Assembly: GCA_027006785.1 (NCBI GenBank)
Contig: JALTFR010000039.1
Coordinates: 1-43,151, forward strand
Length of the DNA: 43,151 nucleotides
Reading direction: 5' to 3'
From: Thermoplasmata archaeon
Lineage (GTDB): Archaea > Thermoplasmatota > Thermoplasmata > WALJ01
Positions 3,172 to 42,993 of this stretch are shown here, piece by piece (within the stretch, counting starts at the first letter, position 1; the number at the start of each line of letters is the position of its first letter). The translations under genes and the position numbers were made by a program. The notes under the pieces were generated by a model. It searched no databases, was not told the DNA's origin, and was given only the letters and a program-made list of their open reading frames with translations.

Positions 3172-3220
3172 CACGACCTTCCATCCGAATGGTCTGCTCG
3201 CGAAGATGAACTTCGCTCGT
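3172..3220 (+). repeat. two-hairpin element, copy D, inserted after tRNA-Arg nucleotide 23
   Basis: A 49-nt insert beginning cacgaccttcc and ending gctcgt. Hairpin 1 pairs GACC-TTC with GAA-(t)-GGTC around the loop catcc; hairpin 2 pairs GCGAAG (3200-3205) with CTTCGC (3211-3216). The connector tctgctcgc is the same as in the tRNA-Ala copy at 42916-42965, but hairpin 2 has different bases that still pair. That pattern, changed sequence with kept pairing, argues for selection on folding. Confidence 0.75.
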
Positions 3221-3266
3221 GGCGGCCTGCCGCCCCGGAGCCAAAACCTCTTAGTATACGCAAAAT

Positions 3267-3341
3267 GGGCGCGTGGCCTAGCCTGGATATGGCGGCAGCC
3301 TCCTAAGCTGCAAGCCGGGGGTTCGAATCCCCCCGCGTCCG
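3267..3341 (+). tRNA. tRNA-Arg, anticodon CCU
   Basis: A complete 75-nt cloverleaf. Acceptor GGGCGCG (3267-3273) pairs with CGCGTCC (3334-3340); D arm gcc/ggc; anticodon stem GCAGC/GCTGC around the loop CTCCTAA, giving anticodon CCT (3302-3304) for the codon AGG; variable loop AAGCC; T stem GGGGG/CCCCC with loop TTCGAAT; discriminator G at 3341. CCA is not encoded and no intron is seen. Pair 3-70 is a G-U wobble, normally an alanine identity signal. The gene sits among partial copies of itself and hairpin repeats; a clear TATA box at the usual distance is not obvious. Confidence 0.95.
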
Positions 3342-3347
3342 TCGGGC

Positions 3348-3392
3348 TCTTTCTTTTCTGCTCGTTGCGCTGGCCCACCCTCCAAAGAAAGA
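3348..3392 (+). repeat. inverted-repeat element copy 2 (downstream of tRNA-Arg)
   Basis: The arms tctttcttt (3348-3356) and aaagaaaga (3384-3392) are the same as in the copy at 2979-3022, and the loop (tgctcgttgcgctggcccac) differs at only a few bases. It begins 7 nt after the tRNA-Arg discriminator base, so the stem-loop could also act in 3' processing or termination of the tRNA transcript. A separate 8-bp hairpin, GGACTTCC/GGAAGTCC (3424-3442), sits between this copy and the next two-hairpin element. Confidence 0.7.
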
Positions 3393-3458
3393 CACCACAC
3401 GAGGAGTGGCGCCTCCGAGTGCGGGACTTCCGCAGGAAGTCCGTGGATGGGAAAGAAC

Positions 3459-3510
3459 ACGACCTTTTCAGAGAAAAGGTCTGGTCGCACGGGCGTAACC
3501 GTGCTCCACT
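3459..3510 (+). repeat. two-hairpin element, copy B
   Basis: Hairpin 1 has arms GACCTTTT (3461-3468) and AAAAGGTC (3474-3481); hairpin 2 has arms GCACGG (3487-3492) and CCGTGC (3499-3504) with loop gcgtaa. The connector and the trailing ctccact equal copy A. Relative to copy A, about 50 extra nt separate it from the inverted-repeat element upstream. Confidence 0.75.
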
Positions 3511-3679
3511 CGCTCGGCCCTGCTCACGCTAATATTCCAAAAATGGCCTTTCCGAGCCGATAGGCGAGGCAGGGACTTTTCTTTTAAATCTCCAGTGTAT
3601 TTTTTGCTCGTTGCACTGTAAAGAAATTCGGGGGGTGGAGATTTTACAGATGCTTTCTTCTCAATGTCGGGCAAAAAGG

Positions 3680-3687
3680 TTTTAAAA
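3680..3687 (+). promoter_or_regulatory. TATA box upstream of the dehydrogenase gene
   Basis: ttttaaaa preceded by an A-rich BRE-like stretch (gcaaaaagg). With the usual spacing, transcription would start near 3709. This rules against the upstream ATG at 3687, which overlaps the box, and supports a TTG start at 3717 preceded by GGTGAT (3708-3713). Confidence 0.55.
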
Positions 3688-3716
3688 TGCATCGGGATGC
3701 TCAGCACGGTGATATA

Positions 3717-4832
3717 TTGGCAAAACACAGGATAGCCGTACTTCCCGGAGACGGAGTAGGTGTAGAGGTGATAGAGGCCGCGATGCTGGTGCTTGAGGAG
3801 ATAGGTCTGGATGCCGAGTACATCTACGGGGACATAGGATGGGAGTTCTGGAGGACCGAAGGAGACCCTCTGCCCGAGAGGACCATAGAGCTCATGAAAA
3901 GCACGGATGCCGCCCTTTTTGGTGCCATAACATCGAAACCGAAGGAAGAGGCACAGAAGGAACTCGTTCCGGAACTTCAGGGCAAGGGGTTGCAGTACTT
4001 CAGCCCGATAGTCAGGCTCAGACAGGAGTTCGACCTCTATGCGAATGTCAGGCCCGCCAAGGCATACAAAGGGAATTCCCTCAATTACAGGGACGACATC
4101 AACATAACTGTCTTCAGGGAGAACACGGAAGGCCTTTACGCAGGAGTGGAGTTCTACCCGGTTCCCGAGGAGATAGATTCCGCGCTCCAGACCCATAAGA
4201 AATACCAGAGGTTCGTAGGAGAGGACAAGGCCATATCCGTCAGAATAATCTCTAAGAAAGGTGCCGAGAGGATCGTTCGGAGCGCATTTGAGTTCGCCCG
4301 GGACAATGGGCTGAAGAATGTCACTGTCGTCGAAAAACCGAATGTGCTGAGGGAGACCAGCGGGCTCTTCGTCAGGACCGCCAGAAAGGTGCATGAGGAG
4401 TTCCCGGAGATAGAGATGTGGGAGACGAACATAGACGCCCAGGCCATGTGGCTCGTGAAGAACCCGGAGAAATACGATGTTCTGGTGACCTCCAACTTGT
4501 TCGGCGACATAATCTCTGACCTTGCGTCACAGTTGACAGGAGGCCTTGGGTTTGCAGCCTCCGGGAACATGGGAGAGAAATACGCCGTCTTCGAGCCGGT
4601 GCACGGCTCTGCACCCAAGTATGCGGGACAGTACAAGGTGAACCCCATTGCCACCATAAGGGCCGTCAGAATGATGCTCGACTACCTCGGAGAGCACAAG
4701 AAGGCTGACAGGCTCGAGAGGGCCATAGAGATCGTTGTCGAGGAAGGCAAGGTGAGGACCTACGACATGGGCGGAGATGCCGGAACCCTCGATGTCGCAA
4801 GGGAGATAGCGAAGAAGTACTCCGAGCAGTAA
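3717..4832 (+). CDS. isocitrate/isopropylmalate dehydrogenase family beta-decarboxylating dehydrogenase
   Basis: A 371-residue NAD(P)-dependent decarboxylating dehydrogenase that oxidises a 2-hydroxy acid such as isocitrate, 3-isopropylmalate or homoisocitrate. Landmarks in order: LPGDGVG (9-15), the substrate arginines in SPIVRLRQEFDLYANVRP (from 96), RENTEG (134-139), metal-binding Asp240 and GDIISD (263-268), and the nucleotide-loop motif EPVHGSAP (293-300). I chose the TTG at 3717 because it gives MAKHRIAVLPGDG, the standard family N-terminus, has GGTGAT 3 nt upstream, and follows a TATA box; the ATG at 3687 overlaps that box and would add 10 atypical residues. No leucine-pathway genes are adjacent, so isocitrate or homoisocitrate is at least as likely as isopropylmalate. 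Confidence 0.9.
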   Translation: MAKHRIAVLPGDGVGVEVIEAAMLVLEEIGLDAEYIYGDIGWEFWRTEGDPLPERTIELMKSTDAALFGAITSKPKEEAQKELVPELQGKGLQYFSPIVRLRQEFDLYANVRPAKAYKGNSLNYRDDINITVFRENTEGLYAGVEFYPVPEEIDSALQTHKKYQRFVGEDKAISVRIISKKGAERIVRSAFEFARDNGLKNVTVVEKPNVLRETSGLFVRTARKVHEEFPEIEMWETNIDAQAMWLVKNPEKYDVLVTSNLFGDIISDLASQLTGGLGFAASGNMGEKYAVFEPVHGSAPKYAGQYKVNPIATIRAVRMMLDYLGEHKKADRLERAIEIVVEEGKVRTYDMGGDAGTLDVAREIAKKYSEQ

Positions 4833-4862
4833 GCTCATATACCCTTTTCCCTTTTCTTTTCC

Positions 4863-5603
4863 GTGCTTCGAGTGAGGAACCTTTCCAGCGGCAGCAAAGG
4901 GAATTCAACCCTGGTGTGGACCGACGATAATGCCATTCTTCTCGATGCAGGGATAAGCGCTCTCCAGGTGCGCCGGAGGGTGGCCGATTCAGGCATTGAG
5001 ATAGAGGATGTTGATGCCATACTGATATCCCACGAGCACATAGACCACATAAGGGGAATAGATGTGCTTTCCAGAAGGTACGGGAAGAAGGTATATGCCA
5101 CATCCAGAACCTGGGAGAACATGAAGATAGTGCCTGATGAAAGAGGGATTCTGAGAAGGGAGATGCGCTTCGGTGACATAGTGATAAGGACCTTCCCTGT
5201 TCCCCACGATGCGGTTGACCCTGTGGGCTTCGAGATATACCATGAGGACAGCAAGGTCGTTGCCGTGACCGACATAGGCCATGCTCCGCCATATCTCCTC
5301 GAGACCATGAAGGACGCATCCTTAGTTCTTATAGAGTCCAACCACGATGTGGACATGCTGCAGAACGGACCGTATCCGTACTACCTGAAGCAGAGGATAC
5401 TGAGCGAGGAAGGGCACCTGTCAAACGAGGACTGCGGAAAGGCACTTGCCTCTTCCCTTAACAGGGACGCTGTGGCCGTTATGCTGGCCCATCTCAGCGA
5501 GGAGAACAACACCCCTGAGCTAGCGAGGAGAACCGCAGAGGAGAATGTGGATGTCCCTGTGATAGTAACAGGTCTGGAGCCGACGGACATCATCGAGCTT
5601 TGA
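4863..5603 (+). CDS. metallo-beta-lactamase fold hydrolase, WalJ/YycJ-like
   Basis: A 246-residue single-domain metallo-beta-lactamase protein. The zinc-binding signature is HEHIDH (57-62); further metal or active-site elements are PHDAVDPVGF, VTDIGHAP, ESNHD and GHLSN. The start region MLRVRNLSSGSKGNST is typical of the YycJ/WalJ branch, thought to be exonucleases or nucleic-acid hydrolases; the substrate is unproven here. The GTG start at 4863 lies about 24 nt after tcatata (4836-4842), consistent with a leaderless transcript. The gene is convergent with the SHMT-family gene, whose stop overlaps its last codons by 14 nt. Confidence 0.88.
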   Translation: MLRVRNLSSGSKGNSTLVWTDDNAILLDAGISALQVRRRVADSGIEIEDVDAILISHEHIDHIRGIDVLSRRYGKKVYATSRTWENMKIVPDERGILRREMRFGDIVIRTFPVPHDAVDPVGFEIYHEDSKVVAVTDIGHAPPYLLETMKDASLVLIESNHDVDMLQNGPYPYYLKQRILSEEGHLSNEDCGKALASSLNRDAVAVMLAHLSEENNTPELARRTAEENVDVPVIVTGLEPTDIIEL

Positions 5604-6720
5604 GAGAATTCAGTATCATATCCGCTATCCGTTCCATGTCCGAGGCATCCATCCCCCTGTGAGTTACCTCGGCAACCCCTATTCTTCCAACGGCATCAAC
5701 GATGATCCCGTTTCTGTCCAGCGCATCGCTGAACTCCTGTGGCGTGAGGCCCCATCTGCTCATGAGCATATCTGTGTCCAGAAGCAACTGGTGAGACTCC
5801 GTGTATATCGGGTGAAATCGTATCGGTATCTCGCGTTCATGGAGCGCTCTCCCGAGGACCTTTGCATTCTCAACCACCTTTCTTCCATAGTCCCTGTCCT
5901 GTTCAAGTTCATACATGGCATGGCCTAGGGCCGCTATCCTGTTCAGGTGCGGGTTGTCCATGGTTCGCCATGTTGTGTTGAACCTCACCCTTTCAATGAG
6001 TTCATCGTTGTAGACCAGAACGAGCCCGCCCTGAGGGCCATAAAGGCTCTTGTGCGTTGAACCCACAAGGATGTCCACCATCTCAATGTCCATCTGGAAT
6101 GTGCCTGTTGCGATGAGCCCCATGACATGCGAGCCGTCGTATCCCAGATATCCATCGTAGAACTCCCTTATACGCCTTATGTCGTAGGGAAACGGGAAGT
6201 AGCTCGCTCCGAGGACGATGAGCTCCGGCATTATCCTTTTCACAGCGCTCTCCATCGCATCATAGTCTATCTGCATCCTCTTGCTGTCGAACGGTATCTC
6301 ATGCATATCGTAGCAGAACATCTCAGGCAGGTAATCCAGCATGTATCCGTCATAGCCTCCGTTCTCGGCGGATATGGCCATGAACGCATCCCCTTTCTTC
6401 AGCGTGCTTAGAAGCATCATCTCCGCGGCTATGTGCCCGCCTATGGGCTGAACCTCGGCGTATTTCGCCCTGAAAAGCTGCTCCGCTTTCTCTCTGGTGA
6501 GTCGGATTATCTCCTCCGCATACCTCGTTCCGCCATATGCGTTCCTCACCATTGAGCCGTGGACCTCAGCGTTTATCTCAAGGGAATAGCGGCCTGCAAG
6601 GTCGGATGCCAGTATCCTCCTGACCTCGTCGCTGAGAAAGTTCTCGGACGGCAGCAGGTTTATCGCATTCGAGCGGTATTCGTCGTGCCTTTCCACAAGT
6701 TCAAGTATCGGGGAGCGCAT
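5590..6720 (-). CDS. serine hydroxymethyltransferase-family PLP-dependent enzyme
   Basis: A 376-residue fold-type I aminotransferase-like protein. The PLP lysine is K224 in the motif GSTHKSLYGPQGG, the counterpart of TTHKxLRGPRGG in SHMT; LLPSENFLS (22-30), YGGTRYAEEI and VQPIGGHIAAE also align with SHMT landmarks. SHMT makes glycine and methylene-tetrahydropterin from serine. It is shorter than classical GlyA (about 410-430) and the YDGSHVMGLI segment departs from the usual VDMAHIAGL, so an aldolase-like or altered-cofactor activity is possible. I use the ATG at 6720 (MRSPILELVE); a longer frame from 6891 would start outside the conserved domain and overlap the divergent gene at 6837. Confidence 0.85.
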   Translation of the reverse strand: MRSPILELVERHDEYRSNAINLLPSENFLSDEVRRILASDLAGRYSLEINAEVHGSMVRNAYGGTRYAEEIIRLTREKAEQLFRAKYAEVQPIGGHIAAEMMLLSTLKKGDAFMAISAENGGYDGYMLDYLPEMFCYDMHEIPFDSKRMQIDYDAMESAVKRIMPELIVLGASYFPFPYDIRRIREFYDGYLGYDGSHVMGLIATGTFQMDIEMVDILVGSTHKSLYGPQGGLVLVYNDELIERVRFNTTWRTMDNPHLNRIAALGHAMYELEQDRDYGRKVVENAKVLGRALHEREIPIRFHPIYTESHQLLLDTDMLMSRWGLTPQEFSDALDRNGIIVDAVGRIGVAEVTHRGMDASDMERIADMILNSLKAR

Positions 6721-6836
6721 GGTAATAGAACCATTATGAAAAAGTATGCTCTTCGCACGAGCTTCTTCCCGCCCCTTGAAAACATGAATGAAACGCGGGG
6801 GCGAAAATCTATTATACGGAAAATAGATACTGATAT

Positions 6837-7295
6837 GTGGAAAAAGATAATGCCGTCCTGGGAAGAAAGATCGGTTACGGGCTCTTCGCATTGAATTTAT
6901 TAGTTTGGCTTCTATTGCTGTTTGACATCAGAACAACGCCTCTTCCTGTGAATTGTGCAGGTGCGTGGTCCTCTGCAACTGGACTTTATTGCGGTTTCAT
7001 ATTCTTATTGTATTTTGCAATCGTATCGGTTGAGAAGAAATATTTTCATCTATCTATCGTGCACCCTGTTTTTGCCATTTTTATTATGATATCTATAACA
7101 ATATTGATCTTTTGTTTCTTAAATCCCGTCATAATGGATCTTTGTATGTGCTATAATCCAGAGATAATCACAAAGACATATCTTTGGGCTTCCTTCGCCT
7201 TTATATTCGATTCTATCGCTAAAGCATCCATTGTTTCAGGGCTGGGAACGGAATATTCCAGGAAGTTCCATGAGAAAAAGAAATCGAATGGATAG
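6837..7295 (+). CDS. hypothetical membrane protein with about four transmembrane segments
   Basis: A 152-residue protein I do not recognise. Hydrophobic segments are visible at about residues 11-28, 45-64, 73-97 and 112-130, with a short basic C-terminus (RKFHEKKKSNG). Several cysteines occur, including CMC at about 100-102. The GTG start at 6837 lies about 24 nt after attata (6811-6816), suggesting a leaderless transcript. Codon use is AT-richer than in neighbouring genes, with many TTT/ATT/TTA codons, which fits a lineage-specific or recently acquired gene. It is divergent from the SHMT-family gene and convergent with the transglutaminase-like gene, 3 nt away. Confidence 0.7.
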   Translation: MEKDNAVLGRKIGYGLFALNLLVWLLLLFDIRTTPLPVNCAGAWSSATGLYCGFIFLLYFAIVSVEKKYFHLSIVHPVFAIFIMISITILIFCFLNPVIMDLCMCYNPEIITKTYLWASFAFIFDSIAKASIVSGLGTEYSRKFHEKKKSNG

Positions 7296-7298
7296 GAT

Positions 7299-8108
7299 TC
7301 ATTCACAGTCCGTTGGCTCTATCTGCGGATCGGGTATGTCCCACTCATAATGCACCTTCGGGCCGGCACCTATGCGCACGCTGTAGTCCGATATGGCAGG
7401 ATTGAACTCCTCCACCTTGAGAACGATGTAATTCCTCGTGTGCGAGCCGATGTTGTTGAGCGCGATATCCGCGGTGAGCCAGCCGTGTATTGGCGAAAGG
7501 ACCTCCGCCCATGCATGCCTTTCAGGCTTTTCTTTCATGAAAAACCCGGTTATCCTTCTGCACGGGATCCCTCTCATTCTGGCAAGCGACATGAAGATGT
7601 CCGTGAACTCGTCGCAGTCACCTATGCCTCTTTTCAGGGCCTCCTCGGCGCCCCAGCGTCTTTCCTGATCCTCAGGTTCTATCCTTTTTCGGATGTAGCG
7701 CCATGCCGATGCCACCCATTCGGACAGGTCGTCGCTCTCGAACCAGCCCTCTTCAACATCTATGGTATCGGGCCAGAAGCGGGATGCCTGCCTGTACTTC
7801 GCGGCCAGACCTCTGTCTATGTCGCTTATCATTCCCCATCCTTCCTTCAGCGATACCTTTCTTTCCTCGGGAAATACCTGCAATTCCCTTTCCAGAGAAA
7901 TGATGCCCTTCGAGGCGACTTTTCCATTGAAGACCAGAAACCTGTTCTGCCCCTTTTTCTTTACCCTGAAACTTGACGGCAGGCGCTCCCCAGCAACCTT
8001 CTGCCGATATTCGGGATAGTGATAGACCTTCAACTGTATCTGAGGGCTTCCCGAATTGGCGCGGTATGTGAAGCGCTCCCTGTGATATATGTGCCAGCCG
8101 CAGGGCAT
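7299..8108 (-). CDS. transglutaminase-like cysteine protease-fold protein
   Basis: A 269-residue protein with a transglutaminase-like core in its C-terminal half. The catalytic triad is visible: C165 in GIGDCDEFT, H198 in ERHAWAEV, and D214 in LTADIA. Archaeal members of this family are usually taken to be peptidases or amidases rather than cross-linking enzymes. The N-terminal 100 residues resemble a beta-rich domain and no signal peptide or membrane segment is clear, so a cytoplasmic site is likely. On the minus strand a TATA-like tttttaata (8130-8138) lies about 26 nt before the ATG, implying its own leaderless promoter rather than read-through from the operon upstream. Confidence 0.83.
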   Translation of the reverse strand: MPCGWHIYHRERFTYRANSGSPQIQLKVYHYPEYRQKVAGERLPSSFRVKKKGQNRFLVFNGKVASKGIISLERELQVFPEERKVSLKEGWGMISDIDRGLAAKYRQASRFWPDTIDVEEGWFESDDLSEWVASAWRYIRKRIEPEDQERRWGAEEALKRGIGDCDEFTDIFMSLARMRGIPCRRITGFFMKEKPERHAWAEVLSPIHGWLTADIALNNIGSHTRNYIVLKVEEFNPAISDYSVRIGAGPKVHYEWDIPDPQIEPTDCE

Positions 8109-8142
8109 GAAAGGAGATGCACTTCCGTATTAAAAAGAAAGC

Positions 8143-8763
8143 CTACTTTGCATGCTTTTCTTTCCATCTCTGAATGTCCAGACCACAGGAATAACATACT
8201 GTGGCATCCCTGCTCAAAAGGGTTCCGCAGTTCGGACACGGAACCTCGCCGGAGCTTATGGCCTTTTCCGATGTTTTCACTATCTTCGCAGCCTTTCTGT
8301 TCTTCGGCTCCTTTTTCAGTATCTCTGCCGCAATCTCTCCGGCCCTTTTCACATCTCTCTTAACATACCATTCAGCCACCATTATGCCAATCTTCGTGTC
8401 CCCGCTACTTTTCCAGTATTCCTCATATACCTTCATAGAGGAATCCACGTCCCTCATTCCCTCAGAATAATACATCGCCAGATTGAGCGCGTAGTCCTCA
8501 CTGGCGGGTTCCATCTCAAATGCCTTTTTCGCATATTCCAGCCCGCTCTTATCAGGTATCGTGAGAAGCGAGAGAATGTAATATGCCCTCGCGCTCTCCC
8601 TGTTCGCCAGCACCTTTTTCAGATAAGAGACTGCCACATCCTTTTTCATCTTCCTGCTCTGTATGGCCTTACGGAATATCAGGTCAAAAAGGGCGTCGTA
8701 ATCTCCGGACAGATACAGGTCTTCGGCTTCCTGCTCCGGCTTCTTCCCGCCGAAAAGACCCAT
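8143..8763 (-). CDS. helical-repeat (TPR-like) protein with C-terminal zinc ribbon
   Basis: 206 residues. Residues 10-165 form a run of amphipathic helices with TPR-like spacing (for example YAKKAFEMEPASEDYALNLA), and the end carries a zinc ribbon with C176/C179 (CPNCG) and C190/C193 (CYSCG). Such proteins usually mediate protein-protein contacts; no enzymatic motif is visible. The ATG is 1 nt after the stop codon of the epimerase gene (TGATATG), so the two are translationally coupled and the protein may serve the same envelope pathway. Function is unknown. Confidence 0.75.
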   Translation of the reverse strand: MGLFGGKKPEQEAEDLYLSGDYDALFDLIFRKAIQSRKMKKDVAVSYLKKVLANRESARAYYILSLLTIPDKSGLEYAKKAFEMEPASEDYALNLAMYYSEGMRDVDSSMKVYEEYWKSSGDTKIGIMVAEWYVKRDVKRAGEIAAEILKKEPKNRKAAKIVKTSEKAISSGEVPCPNCGTLLSRDATVCYSCGLDIQRWKEKHAK

Positions 8764-8764
8764 A

Positions 8765-9724
8765 TCACTTCCCCAGCAATGCCCTGACCGTAGCCCTGAC
8801 GGCCTCGTCGCTGCTCATCTTCGGTGACCAGCCCTTCGATTTGAGAGCGCTTATGTCCAGGTGCATGAGCTTCACATCGCCTTTCCATCCTCTTCCACCG
8901 TCAACTCCACCTGTCCATTTATACTCGGGTTTCAGGCCCATCTCCTCTGAGACGATGTCAGCGATGGTCTTCACATCGGTCATGTCCTCGCTCCCGATGT
9001 TGTATATGGAGACCCTGTCCATTGAGACATGCACTCCGTGTATGATCCCCTCAATCGTGTCGTCTATGTGCACATAGGACTTCCTCGTGCCCGGCTCTGC
9101 GCCCAGTATCTCAAGTTCATTCGGGTTATTCTTCAGTTTCTCTATGAAATCGTATATCACACCGTGGGTGCTCCTCGGCCCCACCACATTCGCGAACCTG
9201 TAGAGAACGGCCTTCATGTCGAATGTGTGCGCGTATGCGGATATCATGGCCTCTGCGGCCAGCTTTGAGCCTCCGTAAAGGGATATTGGAACAAGTGGGC
9301 CGTAGTCCTCAGGCGTCGGGACCTTATCGGCCTCACCATACACCGTTGATGTGGATGTGAATGCTATTGCGGGAACTCCCATTGCCCTCATGGCTTCCAG
9401 CACGACATAGGTTGCAATTATGTTCTGCTCGAGATGGACCGAGCTGTCGGATTCCCCTATCCTCACATCAGGGTTCGCCGCGAGATGAAAGACTATGCTA
9501 ACGCCGTCCATGTACTCCTCCAGCCCCTCATCCTCCAGCAGATCGTATTTGATGAACTTGAACTTCCTCTTTCTTTTAGCGCTCTTCAGGAACTCCTCCT
9601 TTCCGGATGAAAGGTTGTCTATCCCGATAACCTCGCACTTCATCGAGAGCAGCCTGTCCACGAGATGGCTTCCTATGAAGCCCGCCGCACCGGTCACCAT
9701 AACCTTCTTACCTTCTATGATCAT
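8765..9724 (-). CDS. NAD-dependent epimerase/dehydratase, UDP-glucose 4-epimerase-like
   Basis: A 319-residue extended short-chain dehydrogenase/reductase. The Rossmann glycine motif is GAAGFIG (12-18), and the catalytic S/T-Y-K set is TSTSTVYG (123-130) with Y150 and K154 in SLYGGSK. It should interconvert nucleotide sugars, most likely UDP-glucose and UDP-galactose or their N-acetyl forms, feeding glycan or glycolipid synthesis; substrate specificity cannot be read from sequence alone. It overlaps the upstream export-protein gene by 17 nt and is followed 1 nt later by the TPR/zinc-ribbon gene, forming a three-gene minus-strand operon. Confidence 0.88.
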   Translation of the reverse strand: MIIEGKKVMVTGAAGFIGSHLVDRLLSMKCEVIGIDNLSSGKEEFLKSAKRKRKFKFIKYDLLEDEGLEEYMDGVSIVFHLAANPDVRIGESDSSVHLEQNIIATYVVLEAMRAMGVPAIAFTSTSTVYGEADKVPTPEDYGPLVPISLYGGSKLAAEAMISAYAHTFDMKAVLYRFANVVGPRSTHGVIYDFIEKLKNNPNELEILGAEPGTRKSYVHIDDTIEGIIHGVHVSMDRVSIYNIGSEDMTDVKTIADIVSEEMGLKPEYKWTGGVDGGRGWKGDVKLMHLDISALKSKGWSPKMSSDEAVRATVRALLGK

Positions 9725-10472
9725 CTATAGCACCTCTTACATGGTCTGTTAGATATTTTCTGTTGCTCGCAATCCACAACCCGATAAGTATTAAAACTAT
9801 TATGCCCGCAACGACCGAGACCATCTTGAACATGTCTCCACCTGTAGCCTCTATAAGTTTATCCGCCGCATAGTACGATATCAGCCCTATGGTAAAACAT
9901 CCCGAGAAAGCCCCTATCGCTATTGCCAGTACGGTCTTTGCAGGGCTTAGACCTGCTATCCTCCCGAGTATGCTGGCAACTACCCCTCCGCTTCCCTGAA
10001 ATGGCACCATCACGAATGCAACTATGCCCCAGAAGAGAAATGCCCTGCTCTTCCTGGACTCCTCCATCCTCTTCTTTCCGGCCTGCTCTATCTTCTTCAT
10101 CCATTTTCCAAGCAAGGGTATCTTGAGGGCAAGGTCGAAGTTCCATGCGAGGAAAAGGGCGGTGGCGACATCGACGAAGGCTATGGAGAAAGGAACGAGA
10201 AAAAGGCTGTAGAACGCACTGTTATATCCATGGGACTTCATCCAGATTATAGTGAGAGGTATCACGGACTCCTTTCCAAGGGGAGGTACGAAGTAACCGC
10301 TCATGGCACTCCCTATTGCCGCAAAAATGTCGTAGGGAAGAGTCTTGTAAAGTGCGTATATGTATGCGCCTGCGAATGCGAAGGGGAATACCAGGTAGAA
10401 TAACCTGAGCAGGATCGGGTAGCGGTTGAATATCATACTGAGGGTGGTCTTCACAACAGGGCATAGACTCAT
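9708..10472 (-). CDS. small multidrug export-protein family membrane protein (COG2426 type)
   Basis: A 254-residue integral membrane protein with about five or six hydrophobic segments. The family hallmarks are visible: LGKESVIPLTI in the first half and the re-entrant-like VPFQGSGGVVASILGRIAGL in the second half, matching the family Pfam calls putative small multidrug export proteins, whose actual substrate is unknown. The first gene of a minus-strand operon with the epimerase and the TPR/zinc-ribbon protein. The start is uncertain: the ATG at 10472 lies only about 17 nt from one TATA-like box, whereas a GTG at 10454 (seventh codon) is about 25 nt from another (atttaaaa, 10475-10482). Confidence 0.78.
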   Translation of the reverse strand: MSLCPVVKTTLSMIFNRYPILLRLFYLVFPFAFAGAYIYALYKTLPYDIFAAIGSAMSGYFVPPLGKESVIPLTIIWMKSHGYNSAFYSLFLVPFSIAFVDVATALFLAWNFDLALKIPLLGKWMKKIEQAGKKRMEESRKSRAFLFWGIVAFVMVPFQGSGGVVASILGRIAGLSPAKTVLAIAIGAFSGCFTIGLISYYAADKLIEATGGDMFKMVSVVAGIIVLILIGLWIASNRKYLTDHVRGAIDDHRR

Positions 10473-10510
10473 GGATTTAAAAGTTATTAAAAAGGGAAAT
10501 GGGAATGGGT

Positions 10511-11611: not shown

Positions 11612-11620
11612 TTTTTCACC

Positions 11621-35703: not shown

Positions 35704-36657
35704 ATGATGGATATATGGACCGAGAAGTACCGCCCGAAAACGCTTGATGAGGTGGTGGGACAGCAGAATGCAGTCAAAAGGCTGAAATCCTATGTGAAGG
35801 CGGGCAACATGCCGCACCTTCTGTTCTCAGGCCCAGCAGGTGTCGGTAAGACCACTTCGGCCATAGCCCTTGCTCGGGATATGTTCGGGGATAACTGGAA
35901 GAACAACTTCTACGAACTGAATGCCAGCGATGAGAGGGGGATAGATGTTGTGAGGGTGAACATAAAGGAATATGCCAGAACAGCCCCGTTCGGCGGCGCT
36001 CCCTTCAAGATAATATTCCTGGATGAGGCGGATGCTCTCACCTCCGATGCGCAGGCCGCGCTCCGCAGGACCATGGAGAAGTACTCCGGCACGTGCAGGT
36101 TCATACTCTCCTGCAACTACTCATCCAAGATAATAGACCCGATACAGTCAAGGTGTGCGATATTCAGGTTCATCCACCCTTCGGAAGAGGAGATAATCGA
36201 ATACCTGAAAAGGATAGTGAAAGGAGAGGAGATAGACATAGATGACGATGCTTTGAGACAGATAGCCCTTGTGTCGGAAGGTGATGTTCGAAAGGCGGTG
36301 AACACACTTCAGGTGGCAGCATCCTTCGCCGATGGTGGGAAAATAGACCTTCAGAGGATATACGAGGCCACAGCAATGGCAGACCCTTCCGATGTTAGGA
36401 ACATGGTTGGCCATGCCATGAACGGTGAGTTCATAGAGGCAAGAAAGATGCTGGACAGAATGCTGATAGACCAGGGCCTGTCGGGAGAGGATGTGATAAA
36501 GGCCATCCACCGCGTTGTGATAGATGAGCCCGGCATAAACGAGGAAACGAAGATAAGGATGCTGGAAAGGATCGGAGAGGCGGACTTCAGGATGGTCGAG
36601 GGCTCCAATGCAAGGATACAGCTCGAGGCCCTTCTCGCTTCTTTCGCGCTTATGTGA
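35704..36657 (+). CDS. rfcS: replication factor C small subunit
   Basis: A 317-residue AAA+ clamp-loader subunit that opens PCNA onto primed DNA. Walker A GPAGVGKT (43-50), Walker B DEAD (107-110), and the arginine-finger SRC motif (149-151) are all present, with the standard start WTEKYRPKTLDEVVGQ. No inteins interrupt it, though this gene often carries them. Start: tandem ATGs at 35704 and 35707; gattaatac (35674-35682) lies about 26 nt upstream, fitting a leaderless or nearly leaderless message. The large subunit RfcL is not in the window. Confidence 0.96.
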   Translation: MMDIWTEKYRPKTLDEVVGQQNAVKRLKSYVKAGNMPHLLFSGPAGVGKTTSAIALARDMFGDNWKNNFYELNASDERGIDVVRVNIKEYARTAPFGGAPFKIIFLDEADALTSDAQAALRRTMEKYSGTCRFILSCNYSSKIIDPIQSRCAIFRFIHPSEEEIIEYLKRIVKGEEIDIDDDALRQIALVSEGDVRKAVNTLQVAASFADGGKIDLQRIYEATAMADPSDVRNMVGHAMNGEFIEARKMLDRMLIDQGLSGEDVIKAIHRVVIDEPGINEETKIRMLERIGEADFRMVEGSNARIQLEALLASFALM

Positions 36658-36665
36658 GGATTCCC

Positions 36666-37116
36666 ATAAAGGTTTGCATTCGTATACGGAAGCAAGAGGG
36701 GGAGCACCAGAAAGATGGCCAAACTGATGGGAGAGGTGGCTTCTGGAAAGCATGATGTCCTCATCGCAGATGCAAAGGACATGCCAGATATTTCGTCCTG
36801 CGACCTCGTGATCGTCGGGACGCCGATATACTATGAGAAACCCCTGCCCTGCATACGCGAGTTCATAGACAAAAATGAAATGGAAGGAAAGAAGGTGGCG
36901 CTCTTCCTCATGTCAATAGCGGACAAGTTCGGCAAGAAGAGCGTGAAATACACGGAAAACAGGTATGCGGGGCTCACGAAAGATGGGATAAAGGGAGATG
37001 TCATCGCAATAAGGGTGTTCCACGGATGGATGCTGAAAGAGGATAAGAAGACGATGGAAGAGGGAAAGGAATGGATGAAAAGGGTGCTCGATGCCTTTGA
37101 GAACGGAAAAGGATAG
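36666..37116 (+). CDS. flavodoxin-domain protein with a disrupted 5' end
   Basis: A flavodoxin-like protein of about 148 residues if the 5' end is restored. The first usable start in the long frame is the ATG at 36715, but that frame runs upstream to a stop at 36667 and encodes FVYGSKRGSTRKM, the FMN phosphate loop, without any start codon. The missing N-terminus (K-V-C-I) is encoded one frame over at 36669-36680, preceded by ATA rather than ATG and by GAGGA (36656-36660). So one extra base near 36681 and an ATA start separate it from a normal flavodoxin. Later landmarks: CDLVIVGTPIYYEKPLP and FHGWMLKEDKKTM. It may be a young pseudogene, a recoded gene, or a sequencing error. Confidence 0.7.
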
Positions 37117-37187
37117 AGGGTGTTGAGCACAGTAAAAAATGATGCTCGTTCAGTAAATTTTTTAACCGATAAGCAGGTGCTGAACCG

Positions 37188-37907
37188 ATGAACATCGAAT
37201 CTGCGCTGAAAAGCAAGTTCGAGCATGCGCATTTATCAAAGGGAAACTGGGGTCGAGACGAGCAAGAAGCCAGTGAACTCAAGTTAAAGAAGGGGATGCG
37301 CAGTCTTCGAACCGTATCAGTACTGATTGCGATCGGTGCCATGATATCTTTCATTGCCGGATACTTTATAGAAGATTACTGGACGGTTTTTCTCGCCATC
37401 GCTGTACTTTTTCTGGTGATGTTCCTGACCATTGCGATACTTTATCTGATAATAAAGAGGAAGATCAAAAGGATTATCTCTGAAATAAACGAAAACCCCG
37501 CCTACGCAGCAGTGCACAGGATAAGACAGCAGGAGTGTGTCAGATATTACAGCGGGATCATGACAGAGAATGTGGATAACGACACCATGCTGAGCATCGC
37601 GTCGTGTATTAAAGAGCGCATATCTGACGAGTCAGAGTCCTACACCTTCAATATCATAGCATCATCGCCTGTCAAAGTGACAGAGGCCCTGAGCGGGAAA
37701 CAATGGACCCTGCATGACGGATACAGCCCGTTTTTCGTCAGCATAGCGAGATTCGACATCAAGGACACGGAGAATAAGATGGTCGAAGTGGATATCTACA
37801 TCACAAAAGACAGCGAAAAAGAACTGCATGATGTTATCGAGAGGATCAAATCCGGAATACAAAAATGCATCATGGACCGTATCGTTCCCCTGAATGGAGA
37901 GAAATGA
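37188..37907 (+). CDS. hypothetical two-TM protein, paralogue of the next gene (family 2)
   Basis: 239 residues, not recognised. A hydrophilic, helical N-terminus (about 40 residues), transmembrane segments at about 42-60 and 65-90, a basic KRKIKRI segment, then a soluble domain of about 145 residues. It shares with the next protein RKIKRI, IASCIKxxI followed by YTFNI, and WxLHDGxSPFF, clear evidence of duplication. ATG at 37188 is about 26-28 nt from ttttttaa (37157-37164), so leaderless transcription is likely. AT-richer than the upstream rfcS. Function unknown. Confidence 0.68.
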   Translation: MNIESALKSKFEHAHLSKGNWGRDEQEASELKLKKGMRSLRTVSVLIAIGAMISFIAGYFIEDYWTVFLAIAVLFLVMFLTIAILYLIIKRKIKRIISEINENPAYAAVHRIRQQECVRYYSGIMTENVDNDTMLSIASCIKERISDESESYTFNIIASSPVKVTEALSGKQWTLHDGYSPFFVSIARFDIKDTENKMVEVDIYITKDSEKELHDVIERIKSGIQKCIMDRIVPLNGEK

Positions 37908-37924
37908 GAGGCTGAGATGAGATA

Positions 37925-37934
37925 AATATTTATA
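37925..37934 (+). promoter_or_regulatory. TATA box of the second family-2 paralogue
   Basis: aatatttatat lies about 26 nt before the GTG at 37956, placing the expected transcription start at the initiation codon. The two paralogues therefore appear to have separate leaderless promoters even though they are adjacent. Confidence 0.5.
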
Positions 37935-37955
37935 TCAAAAGTTTGTTTCTCCATT

Positions 37956-38687
37956 GTGGATATGGATAAAATCGTACACAAGGTTGTAGAGAAACAGGAG
38001 CTTAAAAAGGGGCTCTGGGAAAAGAAGGAAGAAAGTGCTATGGATGGGCTGCAGAAGACCAAATGGAGAAGAAACATCTTCATCCTTCTATTTTTAATAG
38101 GTCTCGGTCTTCTTTTCCTGGATCTTTCATATCTCTATCCTCAACAAAAAGCCTTCTTTTTAGCTTATGGACTCGTTTTTCTTTTTATTGGCAGTGGGGC
38201 TACATTGTTTTTTTTACTGTTGTTCAGAAAGATAAAGAGGATTGAGGATAAGATGAGAAGCAGCCCTTCGGGATATGGTATTTATGAGTTCCGAAAACAT
38301 CCGACCCTAAAATATCAGACTGCGACAGAATTGAAAGATATCACCGAGGAAGATCTCGGGCGAATAGCATCATGCATAAAGGATGCCATAACAGAGATAG
38401 GAGAGCATTATACATTCAACATCGCATTTCTGGACGAGGCTGGCATCAAATTGCTAATTGTCCCCGGTGGAAGCACCAAGATGTGGTTTCTGCATGACGG
38501 ACACAGCCCCTTCTTCATAGCTCTCGGCGTGTCTAAAATCGAGGGGAGTTCGAAAAAGATATTTTCAATAGAGGTCAGAATCAAAAAAGAATCGTATGAA
38601 TCTCTGAAAGAACAGATAGAACAGGTCAAAGAAAGGGCCCGGGACTGTGCCCTTAAGGTAATCCATGAAATAGAGGGAAACAGTTGA
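37956..38687 (+). CDS. hypothetical two-TM protein, paralogue of the preceding gene (family 2)
   Basis: 243 residues from a GTG start (MDMDKIVHKVVEK). The same plan as its neighbour: charged helical N-terminus of about 40 residues, transmembrane segments at about 41-60 and 67-90, the RKIKRI segment, and a soluble domain with IASCIKDAI, HYTFNI and WFLHDGHSPFF. The last 40 residues form a charged helix. It also shows the overall plan of the pair at 15368-16535 but the soluble domains do not obviously align, so I treat them as separate families. Function unknown. Confidence 0.68.
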   Translation: MDMDKIVHKVVEKQELKKGLWEKKEESAMDGLQKTKWRRNIFILLFLIGLGLLFLDLSYLYPQQKAFFLAYGLVFLFIGSGATLFFLLLFRKIKRIEDKMRSSPSGYGIYEFRKHPTLKYQTATELKDITEEDLGRIASCIKDAITEIGEHYTFNIAFLDEAGIKLLIVPGGSTKMWFLHDGHSPFFIALGVSKIEGSSKKIFSIEVRIKKESYESLKEQIEQVKERARDCALKVIHEIEGNS

Positions 38688-38697
38688 AAAATGGGTT

Positions 38698-38967
38698 TTA
38701 TATGAGGCTCATGTCGGTGAGCTCTATGTTCTGAACTCCCTCTATGGCCTTCATCTTCTCCTCGAGCTCTCCAGATTTTCCGGACTTGTCGTCCATGACT
38801 ATGACGATCTCAAGGGCCTTCAGTCCGAAGGCTATCGGTTTTATGTCGGTCCTGTTGAGCTGTGCGCCCACTGACTCGGCAGCGCTCTTTATCTCGGCCT
38901 TTACCTTCTCAAGGTCAACATCCGGGCTTTCCGGCATAACGCTGTATATCATCGCTACATCGCCCAT
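38698..38967 (-). CDS. ef1b: translation elongation factor aEF-1beta
   Basis: An 89-residue guanine nucleotide exchange factor for aEF-1alpha. The family start GDVAMIYSVMPESPDVDLEKVK and the central strand IKPIAFGLKALEIVIVM are clear, and the length is standard for the archaeal form. GAGGTGA precedes the ATG, and the gene lies 9 nt after a small zinc-ribbon gene; this pair is a common euryarchaeal arrangement. Confidence 0.96.
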   Translation of the reverse strand: MGDVAMIYSVMPESPDVDLEKVKAEIKSAAESVGAQLNRTDIKPIAFGLKALEIVIVMDDKSGKSGELEEKMKAIEGVQNIELTDMSLI

Positions 38968-38976
38968 TATCTCACC

Positions 38977-39138
38977 TCACGGCCCAACAAACCCGCATTC
39001 TGGGCATACATACTCGACACTCTGGTCCCTGCACTGCTTGCAGCGGCCTATGATGGCCTTTCCACAGTTAGGGCACTTGAAGACAGTGTCCCCTTCGCCC
39101 GTGAGCCTGACACCACATGAATTGCATACTTCTACCAT
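38977..39138 (-). CDS. small four-CxxC zinc-ribbon protein
   Basis: A 53-residue protein read by hand from the minus strand: it begins MVEVCNSCGVRLTGEG and has four CxxC pairs, CNSC, CPNC, CKQC and CPEC, ending in CGFVGP. It matches the small archaeal double zinc-ribbon proteins usually encoded just upstream of aEF-1beta (DUF1610 type, such as the Haloferax mu-protein HVO_2753), which are thought to assist RNA or translation functions; the precise role is unknown. The ATG is at 39138, and translation is probably coupled to ef1b, 9 nt downstream. Confidence 0.88.
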   Translation of the reverse strand: MVEVCNSCGVRLTGEGDTVFKCPNCGKAIIGRCKQCRDQSVEYVCPECGFVGP

Positions 39139-39193
39139 GGTAATTCCTCACTCTCGCAATCTCATTCCCTATAAATAGTTTGAGGAAAGGGCC

Positions 39194-39775
39194 TCACTGG
39201 ACCGGCCAGAGAGGCAGAATCTCCTTTCCGTTGCTTTCGTTGAGTATCTCTGCGATGCCGGTGTATATCGCCGAGAACCCGCATATGATCCCTTCTATGC
39301 CTGCTATGACTCCGAGAGTCTCGCTTCCAAGGCCCTCTGCAATGGCCAGAAGGAAGAAGAGTATCGTCAGGCTGAAGAACACGAACTGTATCGCCCTGTT
39401 GGCCTTCAGCGTACCGAAGAACATCATTCCGGTGAATATTCCCCACATGGTCAGATAGGATACCATTCCGCCGGTTGTCGCCGGCTCGGACAGCCCGATC
39501 GCTGGGAAGGTTATTATGCCAACCAGACTGAGCCAGAAAAGGCCGTATGATGTGAAGGCCACAGTTCCGAAGGTGTTGCCCTTCTTCCACTCCATGCTTC
39601 CCGCTATTATCTGGGCCAGTCCGCCGTAGAATATGCCCATCGCCAGTATCATGCTTCCCAGAGCGAAGAGCCCCGCATTGTGAAGGTTCAGAAGCACCGT
39701 GGTCATTCCGAAGCCCATGAGCCCCAGCGGTGCGGGATTTCCCGTGCTGTCCTTGACCTTTACCTCGTTTTCCAT
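39194..39775 (-). CDS. satP: acetate/succinate transporter, GPR1/FUN34/YaaH family
   Basis: 193 residues with six membrane helices. The family signature NPAPLGLMGFG occurs just before the first helix. These proteins move acetate or succinate, with a proton or as a channel. I place the start at 39775 (MENEVKVKDSTGN) because AAGGAG (39784-39789 on the minus strand) is 8 nt upstream and the TATA box tttttataa (about 39812-39820) predicts initiation near 39791, downstream of the earlier in-frame ATG at 39805. Together with the AMP-forming acyl-CoA synthetase it suggests uptake and activation of short organic acids, but they are far apart. Confidence 0.9.
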   Translation of the reverse strand: MENEVKVKDSTGNPAPLGLMGFGMTTVLLNLHNAGLFALGSMILAMGIFYGGLAQIIAGSMEWKKGNTFGTVAFTSYGLFWLSLVGIITFPAIGLSEPATTGGMVSYLTMWGIFTGMMFFGTLKANRAIQFVFFSLTILFFLLAIAEGLGSETLGVIAGIEGIICGFSAIYTGIAEILNESNGKEILPLWPVQ

Positions 39776-39829
39776 GATGATTTCTCCTTGAGAGTAGCGC
39801 TCCATTTTGGGGTGTTATAAAAAGATTGC

Positions 39830-40840
39830 TCACTCGCCTGAGAGATAATCTCCTATCTCGTCAGCACTTATCACCCCTTTCTCCGTTATGTATCCTGTGA
39901 CATACCTTGCGGGAGTCACATCGAAGGCAGGGTTCCTTGCAGGGGATTCCGGGTTCGCTATAAGGCACTCTCTAGCATATCTCACTTCATCGGGGGAGCG
40001 CTCCTCAATGACTATTTCATTTCCGCTCTGTATGGTCCTGTCGAAGGTGCTCATCGGTGCGGCCACATAGAAGGGTATCCCGTTCTCCTTTGCCAGCACG
40101 GCCTTCTCGTATGTCCCTATCTTGTTGGCGAAATCCCCATTAGCAGCGATTCTGTCAGCGCCCACTATCACCATGTCTATCTCCCCTTTCCTCATGAAGT
40201 GGCCCGCCGCATTGTCCGCTATGACAGCATGCTCTATTCCCTCGTTGTACAGCTCCCATGCAGTGAGAGATGCGCCCTGAAGCCTCGGCCTCGTCTCGTC
40301 CACCCAGACGAAGACCCTCTTTCCCTGGGATTCGGCAACCCTCATGGGTGCAAGTGCGGTTCCGAAATCCACAGTGGCGAGCGCTCCAGCGTTGCAGTGC
40401 GTCAGTATGCGGTGGCCATTCCTTATGAGCTCCGCGCCATGCTTTCCGATGTCCTCGCATGCCCTTATCGTCCTTTCAACATATTCTTCTGCAGCAGCGA
40501 TGGGCTCCTTTCCCGATCTTATGGCCTCAAGCATGTGGTCCACGGCGTGAAAGAGGTCATGGGCCGTCGGCCTCGTGGATTTCAGGACATGCGCGCCATG
40601 CTCGGTCTCACCCTGCCTGTGGGCCAGTATCATCCCGTATACAGCGGCAGCGCCTATCGCCGGAGCGCCGCGCACCACCATCTCCTTTATGGCGAATGCC
40701 ACATCCCTGTAATCCAATGCCATGTATGTCTCTATCTCGAACGGAAGAGCCCTCTGGTCTATGAAACCCACCTGCCCTTTCTCTTTATCGTACCATACCG
40801 ACCTCATGTCCATCTGAGTGTTTCCTATGCGGACCTTCAT
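39830..40840 (-). CDS. mtnA: S-methyl-5-thioribose-1-phosphate isomerase (aIF2B-like fold)
   Basis: A 336-residue methionine-salvage isomerase converting methylthioribose 1-phosphate to methylthioribulose 1-phosphate. RGAPAIG (57-63), the catalytic cysteine C149 in THCNAGALAT and the catalytic aspartate D229 in VGADRIAANGDFANKIGTY match MtnA rather than the related ribose-1,5-bisphosphate isomerase or the aIF2B regulatory subunits. Start: the ATG at 40840 is about 25 nt from an AT-rich TATA element and gives the standard MKVRIGN start; the longer frame to 40924 would run through that promoter. Other methionine-salvage genes are not nearby. Confidence 0.92.
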   Translation of the reverse strand: MKVRIGNTQMDMRSVWYDKEKGQVGFIDQRALPFEIETYMALDYRDVAFAIKEMVVRGAPAIGAAAVYGMILAHRQGETEHGAHVLKSTRPTAHDLFHAVDHMLEAIRSGKEPIAAAEEYVERTIRACEDIGKHGAELIRNGHRILTHCNAGALATVDFGTALAPMRVAESQGKRVFVWVDETRPRLQGASLTAWELYNEGIEHAVIADNAAGHFMRKGEIDMVIVGADRIAANGDFANKIGTYEKAVLAKENGIPFYVAAPMSTFDRTIQSGNEIVIEERSPDEVRYARECLIANPESPARNPAFDVTPARYVTGYITEKGVISADEIGDYLSGE

Positions 40841-40860
40841 GGGGGTGAATGGACAGAAGA

Positions 40861-40870
40861 TAAAAAATAA
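40861..40870. promoter_or_regulatory. shared TATA element between mtnA and rqc2
   Basis: taaaaaataa is centred 25 nt from the mtnA ATG (40840, minus) and 23 nt from the GTG at 40888 of the Rqc2-like gene (plus). The intergenic space is only 47 nt and holds no other AT-rich box, so one element may direct leaderless transcription both ways. Confidence 0.5.
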
Positions 40871-40887
40871 GCGGTGCATTGCAGGCC

Positions 40888-42789
40888 GTGAAATCCTCGC
40901 TGTCCTCATTCGACATAGCCGCACTTGTCAAGGAACTGGACGATGTGCTGAAAGGCGCCTTCCTGGACAAAATATACCAGCCTGAGAGGGACGAGTTACT
41001 GCTGGTCTTCAACACGAAGTCCGGCAAAAAGGAACTCCTTCTGAAGGCAGGGCGCTACATGTTCCTGGGAAGGAAAGGCGAGAACCCGCAGGAACCGAGC
41101 AGCATGGTTATGTTCCTCAGAAAGAACCTTGGGAACGCAAGGGTCTCGGAGGTGAGGCAGCACGGCTTTGACAGAATCGTTGAAATCGAACTGGAAAAGG
41201 CTGAAAAGTACACGATAATCGCGGAGTTCTTCCGAAACGGGAACATAAGCGTGGTGAAGGACGGCATCATCCTTGTTCCGCTCTTCTTCCAGAGATGGTC
41301 CACCCGGGCTCTCATCCCGAAAGAAGAGTACAGATACCCGCCTGAGAGCGCTGACCCGCACACATTATCGGTGGAGGAGGTCGGAGAGCGTCTGAGAGAG
41401 AGCGATAAGGACCTTGTGAGGACGCTTGCGACACGGTTGAACCTCGGCGGCACATACGCGGAGGAGCTCTGCCTCATGGCAGGCGTGGACAAGAAAAGGA
41501 AGGCGAAGGAACTCGGGGATGATGAGATAGAAAGGGTGGCGAAGGCCCTGAAAGAACTGCTTTCGAAGGAAACGAGGCCTGCGATATACTACGATGGTGG
41601 GAATCCGAAGGATGTGGTCCCGTTTCCCCTGAAGGCCTACGAAGGCCTGGAAAGAAAGGACTTTTCCGACATGAACTCGGCGGTGTTCGAGTACTTCACC
41701 TCGATACATGAGGAAGAGAAGGAAAGGAAAAGCCCTGCCGTGGAGCGTATAGAGCGCCAGATAAGGCAGCAGGAAGAATCGATAGAGCAGTTCAGGAGTG
41801 GCAGCGAGGAAGCAAAGAGGAAGGCGGAGATAATCTACGCACATTATCAAGAGATAGACGCATTTCTCTCAAAGGTCCGGAAGATGAAGGGCAAGGACTT
41901 CGCATCCCTCAAGGACTTGCCGTACTTCGTTTCTGTCCGGCCGGATAAGAAGCTCATAATCATCAGAATAGACGGTGAGGATATAACCCTGGACTTCGCA
42001 GGTGTGAACGAGAGCGCTCAGCGTTACTACGAAGAGGCGAAAAAGCTGAGGGAGAAGATAGAAGGGGCGAAGAAGGCCCTTGAAGAATCGAAGAAGAGGC
42101 TGGAAAAGGCGGAACAGCAGGCCGAGGAATCAAAGAAGACGAAGAAAAGCAGGAAAAAGCAGTGGTTCGAAAGGTATCGGTGGTTCATATCCTCCGATGA
42201 GAACCTCGTCATCGCTGGAAGGGATGCGAAGACCAACGAGCGCGTGGTGAAAAAGCACATGAAGGACGACGACATATACGCCCATGCGGAGATCCACGGA
42301 GCGCCCAGCGTGATAGTGAAAAGTAACAAGGGGGAGGAGATCGGTGAGCAGACCCTGAAAGAGGCCTGCGAGTTCGCGCTCTGCTTCTCAAAGGCCTGGC
42401 CTTCAAAGATAGGAGGGGGAGCTGCATACTGGGTCAGACCATCTCAGGTCAGCAAGACACCTGAGGCCGGAGAGTTCCTTGCTAGGGGGGCATTTGTCAT
42501 AAGGGGAAAGAGGAACTATGTGAAAGCGGACCTGAAACTCGCTGTCGGAATGATGAACTACGGGGATTCAAAGATACCCACATGCGCTCCCCTTTCGGCA
42601 ATGCACAAGTGGTGCGACGAGTACCATGTCATCGTTCCGGGGGATGAAAGGAAGGAAAAGGTGGCCAAGAGGCTGGCTCAGGAACTGGGATGCGAAGTGG
42701 ATGAACTGGTGAGCGCTCTCCCTTCGGGTGGAATAGAGGTGGTTGAGAAGAGAAAGGGCGAAGGGAACAGGGTTACAAGGAAGTTCTGA
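40888..42789 (+). CDS. rqcH: Rqc2/NEMF homologue, NFACT-domain ribosome quality-control factor
   Basis: A 633-residue NFACT protein that binds split 60S/50S subunits holding stalled peptidyl-tRNA. Order: NFACT-N (from MKSSLSSFDIAALVKELDD), a helical HhH-like middle (about 170-240), a long coiled coil (about 280-430, very rich in E/K/R), and the NFACT-R domain beginning WFERYRWFISSDENLVIAGRD with the family stretch DDIYAHAEIHGAPSV. I start at GTG 40888 because it gives the conserved N-terminus and is correctly spaced from the TATA element; a TTG at 40879 would add three residues. The gene is followed by a small GC hairpin (cccg/cggg, about 42807-42820) before the tRNA-Ala locus. Confidence 0.92.
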   Translation: MKSSLSSFDIAALVKELDDVLKGAFLDKIYQPERDELLLVFNTKSGKKELLLKAGRYMFLGRKGENPQEPSSMVMFLRKNLGNARVSEVRQHGFDRIVEIELEKAEKYTIIAEFFRNGNISVVKDGIILVPLFFQRWSTRALIPKEEYRYPPESADPHTLSVEEVGERLRESDKDLVRTLATRLNLGGTYAEELCLMAGVDKKRKAKELGDDEIERVAKALKELLSKETRPAIYYDGGNPKDVVPFPLKAYEGLERKDFSDMNSAVFEYFTSIHEEEKERKSPAVERIERQIRQQEESIEQFRSGSEEAKRKAEIIYAHYQEIDAFLSKVRKMKGKDFASLKDLPYFVSVRPDKKLIIIRIDGEDITLDFAGVNESAQRYYEEAKKLREKIEGAKKALEESKKRLEKAEQQAEESKKTKKSRKKQWFERYRWFISSDENLVIAGRDAKTNERVVKKHMKDDDIYAHAEIHGAPSVIVKSNKGEEIGEQTLKEACEFALCFSKAWPSKIGGGAAYWVRPSQVSKTPEAGEFLARGAFVIRGKRNYVKADLKLAVGMMNYGDSKIPTCAPLSAMHKWCDEYHVIVPGDERKEKVAKRLAQELGCEVDELVSALPSGGIEVVEKRKGEGNRVTRKF

Positions 42790-42839
42790 GAAAAATGCTT
42801 TAATATCCCGTGCTTTTCGGGGGAAATGCAGATGTTCAA

Positions 42840-42915
42840 AAGGCAGAGGCCGCGGGAAAATCATTTAAAATCCATTTCGTTCGCAATCACATGGGCCGGT
42901 AGATCAGCTGGAAGA
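42840..42915 (+). repeat. 76-nt direct repeat, copy 1 (promoter plus tRNA-Ala 5' part)
   Basis: Identical over 76 nt to 42977-43052, a period of 137 nt. It begins with 17 nt equal to tRNA-Ala nucleotides 37-53, continues with a promoter (tttaaaa at 42864-42870), and ends with tRNA-Ala nucleotides 1-23 (42893-42915). The sequence upstream of it is unrelated to tRNA. Confidence 0.9.
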
Positions 42916-42993
42916 CATGAACTTCCTGACAGAAGTTCTGCTCGCACGGGCGTGACCGTGCTCGTGCTGCCTTCGCAAGGCAGAGGCCGCGGG
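42893..42993 (+). pseudogene. interrupted, 3'-truncated tRNA-Ala copy
   Basis: Nucleotides 1-23 of tRNA-Ala (42893-42915) are followed by a 50-nt two-hairpin insert, then tRNA nucleotides 26-53 (42966-42993, anticodon arm, variable loop and the 5' strand of the T stem). It then runs into the promoter of the intact gene, so the T loop, the T-stem 3' strand and the acceptor 3' strand are missing. It cannot make a normal tRNA even if spliced, but its TATA box is in place, so a transcript is expected. Confidence 0.8.
42916..42965 (+). repeat. two-hairpin element, copy C, inserted after tRNA-Ala nucleotide 23
   Basis: Begins catgaacttcc and ends gctcgt. Hairpin 1 pairs GAACTTC with GAAGTTC; hairpin 2 pairs GCACGG with CCGTGC around gcgtga. 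The connector tctgctcgc is identical to copy D (3172-3220), which interrupts tRNA-Arg at the same tRNA position. Hairpin 2 is identical in bases to copies A and B, while hairpin 1 differs from all others but still pairs. Confidence 0.78.

Follow-up and report, generated by a model that had tools for sequence, protein, structure and literature searches.

A two-hairpin repeat at precise loop positions of partial tRNA-gene copies in a family of Thermoplasmata

The window analysed here, a stretch of 43,151 nucleotides, is one contig (C39) of the 1.33-Mb genome of a Thermoplasmata archaeon (G000; 90% complete, 49 contigs). It carries an intact tRNA-Arg gene near one end and an intact tRNA-Ala gene near the other, each with a partial copy upstream. 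The features at the two loci are as follows.

2962..2973, + strand: outer partial copy of the tRNA-Arg 5′ end (GGGCTCGTGGCC), at -305 of tRNA-Arg
2974..3038, + strand: left part of a second palindromic element (CTTTCTTT...CTCCAAAGAAAG type), by sequence; recurs beside other tRNAs (C37, C42, C47, C49, C18)
3039..3087, + strand: two-hairpin unit (49 nt) within the second palindromic element; model R1, 67.2 bits
3149..3171, + strand: partial copy of tRNA-Arg, nt 1-23, identical to the intact gene
3172..3219, + strand: two-hairpin unit (48 nt) in the D-loop of the tRNA-Arg copy; model R1, 40.6 bits; joined flanks restore the tRNA
3220..3266, + strand: short continuation of the tRNA-Arg copy, then an AT-rich promoter-like stretch (sequence, flank joining)
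3267..3341, + strand: intact tRNA-Arg(CCT), by tRNA detection
3344..3457, + strand: second palindromic element downstream of tRNA-Arg, by sequence
3458..3507, + strand: two-hairpin unit within the downstream second palindromic element; model R1, 66.3 bits
42841..42856, + strand: remnant of an earlier tRNA-Ala copy (about nt 39-51), by sequence comparison
42857..42892, + strand: promoter-like region 1 (ATTTAAAAT ... TTCGCAA), repeated at 42994-43029
42893..42915, + strand: partial copy of tRNA-Ala, nt 1-23 (sequence comparison, flank joining)
42916..42964, + strand: two-hairpin unit (49 nt) in the D-loop of the tRNA-Ala copy; model R1, 71.8 bits; flank joining
42965..42993, + strand: tRNA-Ala copy, continued as far as about nt 51 (29-nt right match)
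42994..43029, + strand: promoter-like region 2, the repeat of region 1
43030..43102, + strand: intact tRNA-Ala(CGC), by tRNA detection
43123..43133, + strand: inverted copy of the tRNA-Ala 3′ end (GTGGACCGGGC), the beginning of a 3′ flank element that the end of the contig truncates

The original prediction, made from the window alone, described inserts of 49 and 50 nt that interrupt a tRNA-Arg and a tRNA-Ala gene after nt 23. The site proved exact in both, but the inserts measure 48 and 49 nt, and what they interrupt are partial duplicates: because intact tRNA-Arg(CCT) and tRNA-Ala(CGC) lie just downstream, at 3267-3341 and 43030-43102, the interrupted genes are extra copies. The pattern of hairpin inserts in tRNA-gene copies is real, and the two further copies predicted beside tRNA-Arg are present at 3039-3087 and 3458-3507 (67.2 and 66.3 bits). 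These two sit in the second palindromic element (CTTTCTTT ... CTCACCCTCCAAAGAAAG ... GGGTTCGCCTGCTCG), which adjoins many tRNA genes (2974-3038 and 3344-3457 in the window; C37, C42, C47, C49 and C18 in the same genome); its stems interleave and, judging by few clean copies, could form a pseudoknot.

The unit has the consensus CAC - hairpin 1 - CTG(C/G)TCG - hairpin 2 - CTC(G/C), and by eye the hairpin-2 loop frequently reads RCGTRA. Across 68 distinct sequences, standard pairs fill 94.4% of the paired cells against 73.0% in shuffles, and 214 cells are changed on both sides against 67.6 in shuffles; the alignment was fitted to the structure and is thereby biased in its favour, but the margin is large nonetheless, and slid structures drop to 45-65% standard pairing. 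The claim that stem bases differ while pairing is kept was therefore borne out. We then compared six tRNA-Arg copies of the sister genus between genomes and found that CAC with hairpin 1 is 97.5% identical and hairpin 2 only 65%, while identity is 97.4% in nt 1-23 of the tRNA, 58% in the upstream flank and 54% in the downstream one. Hairpin 2 is swapped wholesale at orthologous sites with pairing retained (GCGAAG/CTTCGC, GTGCCG/CGGCAC, GGAAAA.../...TTTTCC). Since hairpin 1 is kept at 97.5% identity while hairpin 2 is replaced yet stays paired, hairpin 1 appears constrained and hairpin 2 appears to be an exchangeable module.

A genome search had been proposed as a check on the prediction, and it returned many further copies. 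With a covariance model first built from eight units, about 25 well-scoring copies were found in the window genome, of which 24 have a tRNA gene within 400 nt, and the other four genomes of the family carry 6-21 copies each at the same score. A refined model gave 9-27 matches per genome in all five family genomes (n=5), and one weak match each in 2 of 115 other genomes of the class. The scores of the four window copies (40.6-71.8 bits, model R1), the strong covariation and the single weak matches in only 2 of 115 outside genomes argue against chance. In G001 and G003, several two-hairpin copies lie distant from tRNA genes. G001 also carries a dispersed non-coding element whose core is a double-hairpin array (CACGTCCTTCCACAAGGAAGGTCTGCTCGGAGC...; contigs C8, C9, C18, C53, C155, C166 and C192), several copies of which are not near tRNA genes. 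In G003, the two-hairpin unit also lies within a further palindromic element (GAGCCATGGTGC ... GGCACCATGG), in each of its three copies (C22, C39, C75).

We next consider where the unit lies within its hosts. In more than 20 copies, joining the flanks across the unit restores the adjacent tRNA with nothing lost or doubled, the match reaching up to 24 nt on the left (51 nt in one T-loop case) and up to 29 nt on the right. The unit follows nt 13 in the D-loop (between nt 13 and 14) of Val, Asp, Leu-TAG, Gln and Glu copies, and nt 23-24 (between nt 23 and 24) in Arg, Ala and Leu-CAA; at the T-loop, between nt 59 and 60, it occurs forward in Arg-CCG and in reverse in Val and Pro. An insert can also consist of two or three tandem units, as in Gln. 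The restoration of the tRNA at all three positions indicates that insertion is precise. The D-arm target proposed earlier is too narrow, as the unit also occupies the T-loop in both orientations, the second palindromic element, arrays without tRNA and, in G003:C33, the gene of an IS transposase. The transposase case was considered as a clean in-frame insertion and rejected: the unit adds a stop, and because a related copy in G004 seems to hold a remnant at the same place, it provides no clean empty site. At orthologous positions of the family genomes no clean empty site was found either, and copy and insert tend to come or go together; in a comparison of species-level genomes, the congener G003 has neither the tRNA-Arg(CCT) copy nor its insert. 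G002:C73, G003:C25 and G000:C42 (annotated Ile, Ile and Ser-gga) share a 5′ tRNA copy whose hairpin insert is of another kind (GGCAC..GCCCTTCGA...), and the conservation of this copy in the three genomes suggests an old insertion.

The copied tRNA ends are themselves widespread. Of the 43 tRNA genes in the window genome, 12 are preceded within 330 nt by a duplicate of their own 5′ end and 7 are followed by a duplicate of their 3′ end (nt 60-73), whereas a control with tRNAs of another amino acid gave 21 (5′) and 25 (3′) matches in 1884 trials. Upstream copies, with the unit excluded, typically reach about the anticodon loop and are followed by a promoter-like stretch and then the intact gene. 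Downstream copies most often comprise exactly nt 60-73 (14 nt; 15 of 37). Tandem arrays of tRNA-end copies occur in the sister genomes, among them four copies after tRNA-Ala (G004:C224) and three with a 70-nt period after tRNA-Leu (G004:C171). The Leu(CAA) duplication has its junction at a common CTCAAGAT, and the arrangement as a whole is patchy across isoacceptors and congeners.

Tandem units of about 70-75 nt also precede tRNA-Ala in other Thermoplasmata families (G018, a single-contig genome, G027, G053, G009, G013 and G125, with 81 nt in G125), as detected with a narrow survey pattern that carries no claim of absence elsewhere. Each is built of the 5′ 12 nt of the tRNA, a hairpin, often a strand that pairs with the copied end, and a tail. 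Since tRNA-end copying occurs in these families too, the two-hairpin unit is what this one family has added to a habit more widely spread in the class. Fold-back pairing with the copied tRNA end is significant in 10 of 15 other-family units and, within the window's family, in 6 of 6 tested units of 73-76 nt (p 0.005-0.035). It is not significant for most of the long units in that family that hold the two-hairpin inserts, so fold-back as a family-wide rule was rejected.

The explanation that we favour, with about even confidence, is a lineage-specific hairpin repeat that works like the mitochondrial double-hairpin elements and is sheltered in duplicated tRNA ends. A repeat of about 49 nt (CAC-hairpin1-CTGCTCG-hairpin2-CTCG), dispersed within the lineage, would insert as DNA at exact sites, mostly in the loops of structured sequences (D-loop edges, T-loop, palindromic element), and would do so without a short target duplication of its own. 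Hairpin 2 and the linkers would be the part most often exchanged. Units would persist beside tRNA genes because these carry local tandem duplicates, which comprise either the promoter with the 5′ part or, at the 3′ end, nt 60-73, while the intact tRNA keeps its function. The data show the exact junctions, the copy numbers, the association with tRNA genes, the restriction to the family, the covariation and the swapping of hairpin 2 at orthologous sites; we infer the movement of copies, the order of events and the linkage of duplication to insertion.

The closest competitor, which we regard as possible but doubtful, is that the partial tRNA copy and its hairpins form a functional RNA in cis: transcribed as a 5′ leader or a 3′ trailer, it would regulate expression, folding or processing of the adjacent tRNA, with hairpins coevolving to hold the structure. 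The identity of about 97% in the first 23 nt of the tRNA and in hairpin 1 including the loop, against 54-58% in the flanks of the sister genomes, is consistent with this, as are the AT-rich promoter-like stretches 5′ of the copies and the units of about 73 nt in other families (tRNA 5′ end, hairpin and often a pairing strand). That hairpin 1, down to its loop, and the promoter-like stretches are conserved suggests selection over pure parasitism. However, the arrangement is patchy across isoacceptors and congeners, hairpin 2 is swapped wholesale, and units also lie distant from tRNAs. Some copies of the hairpin repeat may nonetheless serve as functional leader RNA.

The other explanations are less likely than either the hairpin repeat or the leader RNA. 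Errors of replication or recombination, such as template switching at strong secondary structure, could yield tandem partial copies and fold-backs with neither a mobile element nor a function, and the fold-backs of the shorter units (6/6 in the family, 10/15 elsewhere) and the Leu(CAA) junction at CTCAAGAT fit such errors. We consider this improbable: it leaves unexplained a sequence-similar two-hairpin unit of one family at a few exact positions, and most long units with two-hairpin inserts show no significant fold-back. Reverse transcription of mature tRNA, blocked at m1A58, was considered as the cause of the nt-60 boundary and rejected, since the copies lack the post-transcriptional CCA and the upstream ones include the promoter.

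tRNA genes are favoured landing sites of mobile DNA, and the tRNA-end copies could be scars of site-specific integration in the style of a tyrosine integrase or a casposase, with 14-nt duplications later filled with hairpins. The predominance of exactly nt 60-73 among downstream copies (15/37) and their growth into arrays after some tRNAs resemble casposon and CRISPR integration, and casposons make duplications of 14-15 bp at tRNA 3′ ends (PMC6977970). However, in published casposon target sites the overlap with the tRNA gene is confined to its last 4-7 nt (PMC6977970, PMC4046053), whereas the repeats here lie wholly inside the gene, at nt 60-73; the inserts are tiny hairpins of 48-79 nt, and the 5′ copies include the promoter. 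No solo Cas1 casposase was found: the only Cas1 belongs to a cas4-cas1-cas2 CRISPR locus of the window genome, and none was found in the four sister genomes. That locus (G000:C19) is ordinary, with 15 or more repeats (GTTAGAATAAGACCTATAAGGGATTGAAAT) alongside cas4-like, cas1 and cas2 genes. No transposase was tied to the unit, and Y1 transposase was not found in G000, G001, G003 or G004 (74-91% complete); casposase and Y1 transposase thus gain no support as agents. A search for viral carriers gave no match for the two patterns used. Integration scars, examined here through Cas1, are a very unlikely account. An assembly artefact of repeats at contig ends can be dismissed almost entirely: several contigs do end at tRNA genes, but the same architecture recurs in the four other family assemblies, making five independent ones, and related units occur in the single-contig G018.

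At curated score, Rfam returned only tRNA matches. The literature open to search describes hairpin elements in mitochondria and, in archaea, tRNA fragments left by integrations, yet no case in which the two are combined, and hairpin inserts in archaeal tRNA-gene copies are seemingly undescribed. The double-hairpin elements of Allomyces mitochondria are short dispersed hairpin units, and the present repeat is like them in having two adjacent variable-stem hairpins with pairing kept, a likeness of principle and not a claim of membership. Such double-hairpin or repetitive hairpin-forming elements of fungi and sponges, and the GC clusters of yeast, are structurally divergent, merge into other palindromes and encode no enzyme (PMC2800124, PMC4478555). 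The repeat studied here differs in residing on archaeal chromosomes, in its strong tie to tRNA genes and in its fixed tRNA loop positions. REP/BIME elements with their RAYT (IS200/IS605-like) systems are small hairpin repeats with conserved short flanks, which the present repeat shares; in contrast, its stem sequences are not conserved and a Y1 (TnpA_REP) transposase was not found in four of five genomes. Partial tRNA copies beside intact tRNA genes are left in archaea by integrated elements (PMC9897764), but here both ends are copied, many tRNAs per genome are involved, the copies hold hairpin inserts and no large element lies between. Archaeal tRNA introns and split or permuted tRNAs likewise involve insertions or rearrangements in tRNA genes. 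In nearly all cases, however, the upstream copies lack the 3′ half and an intact gene adjoins, which on this criterion argues against spliced tRNAs.

Across the Thermoplasmata, we tentatively propose, with rather less than even confidence, an undescribed process that repeatedly copies tRNA-gene ends and plants hairpins at fixed loop positions, producing arrays on both sides (nt 1-13/24 upstream, nt 60-73 downstream) either through a new integration enzyme or as tRNA leaders of a new RNA class. That so small a non-coding hairpin repeat has built up at defined tRNA loop positions throughout an archaeal family offers a prokaryotic system for the long-standing question of how mitochondrial double-hairpin elements move. 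tRNA annotation in these genomes calls for caution, as it includes many partial copies, and if the leaders are functional, they would add a new layer of tRNA gene control.
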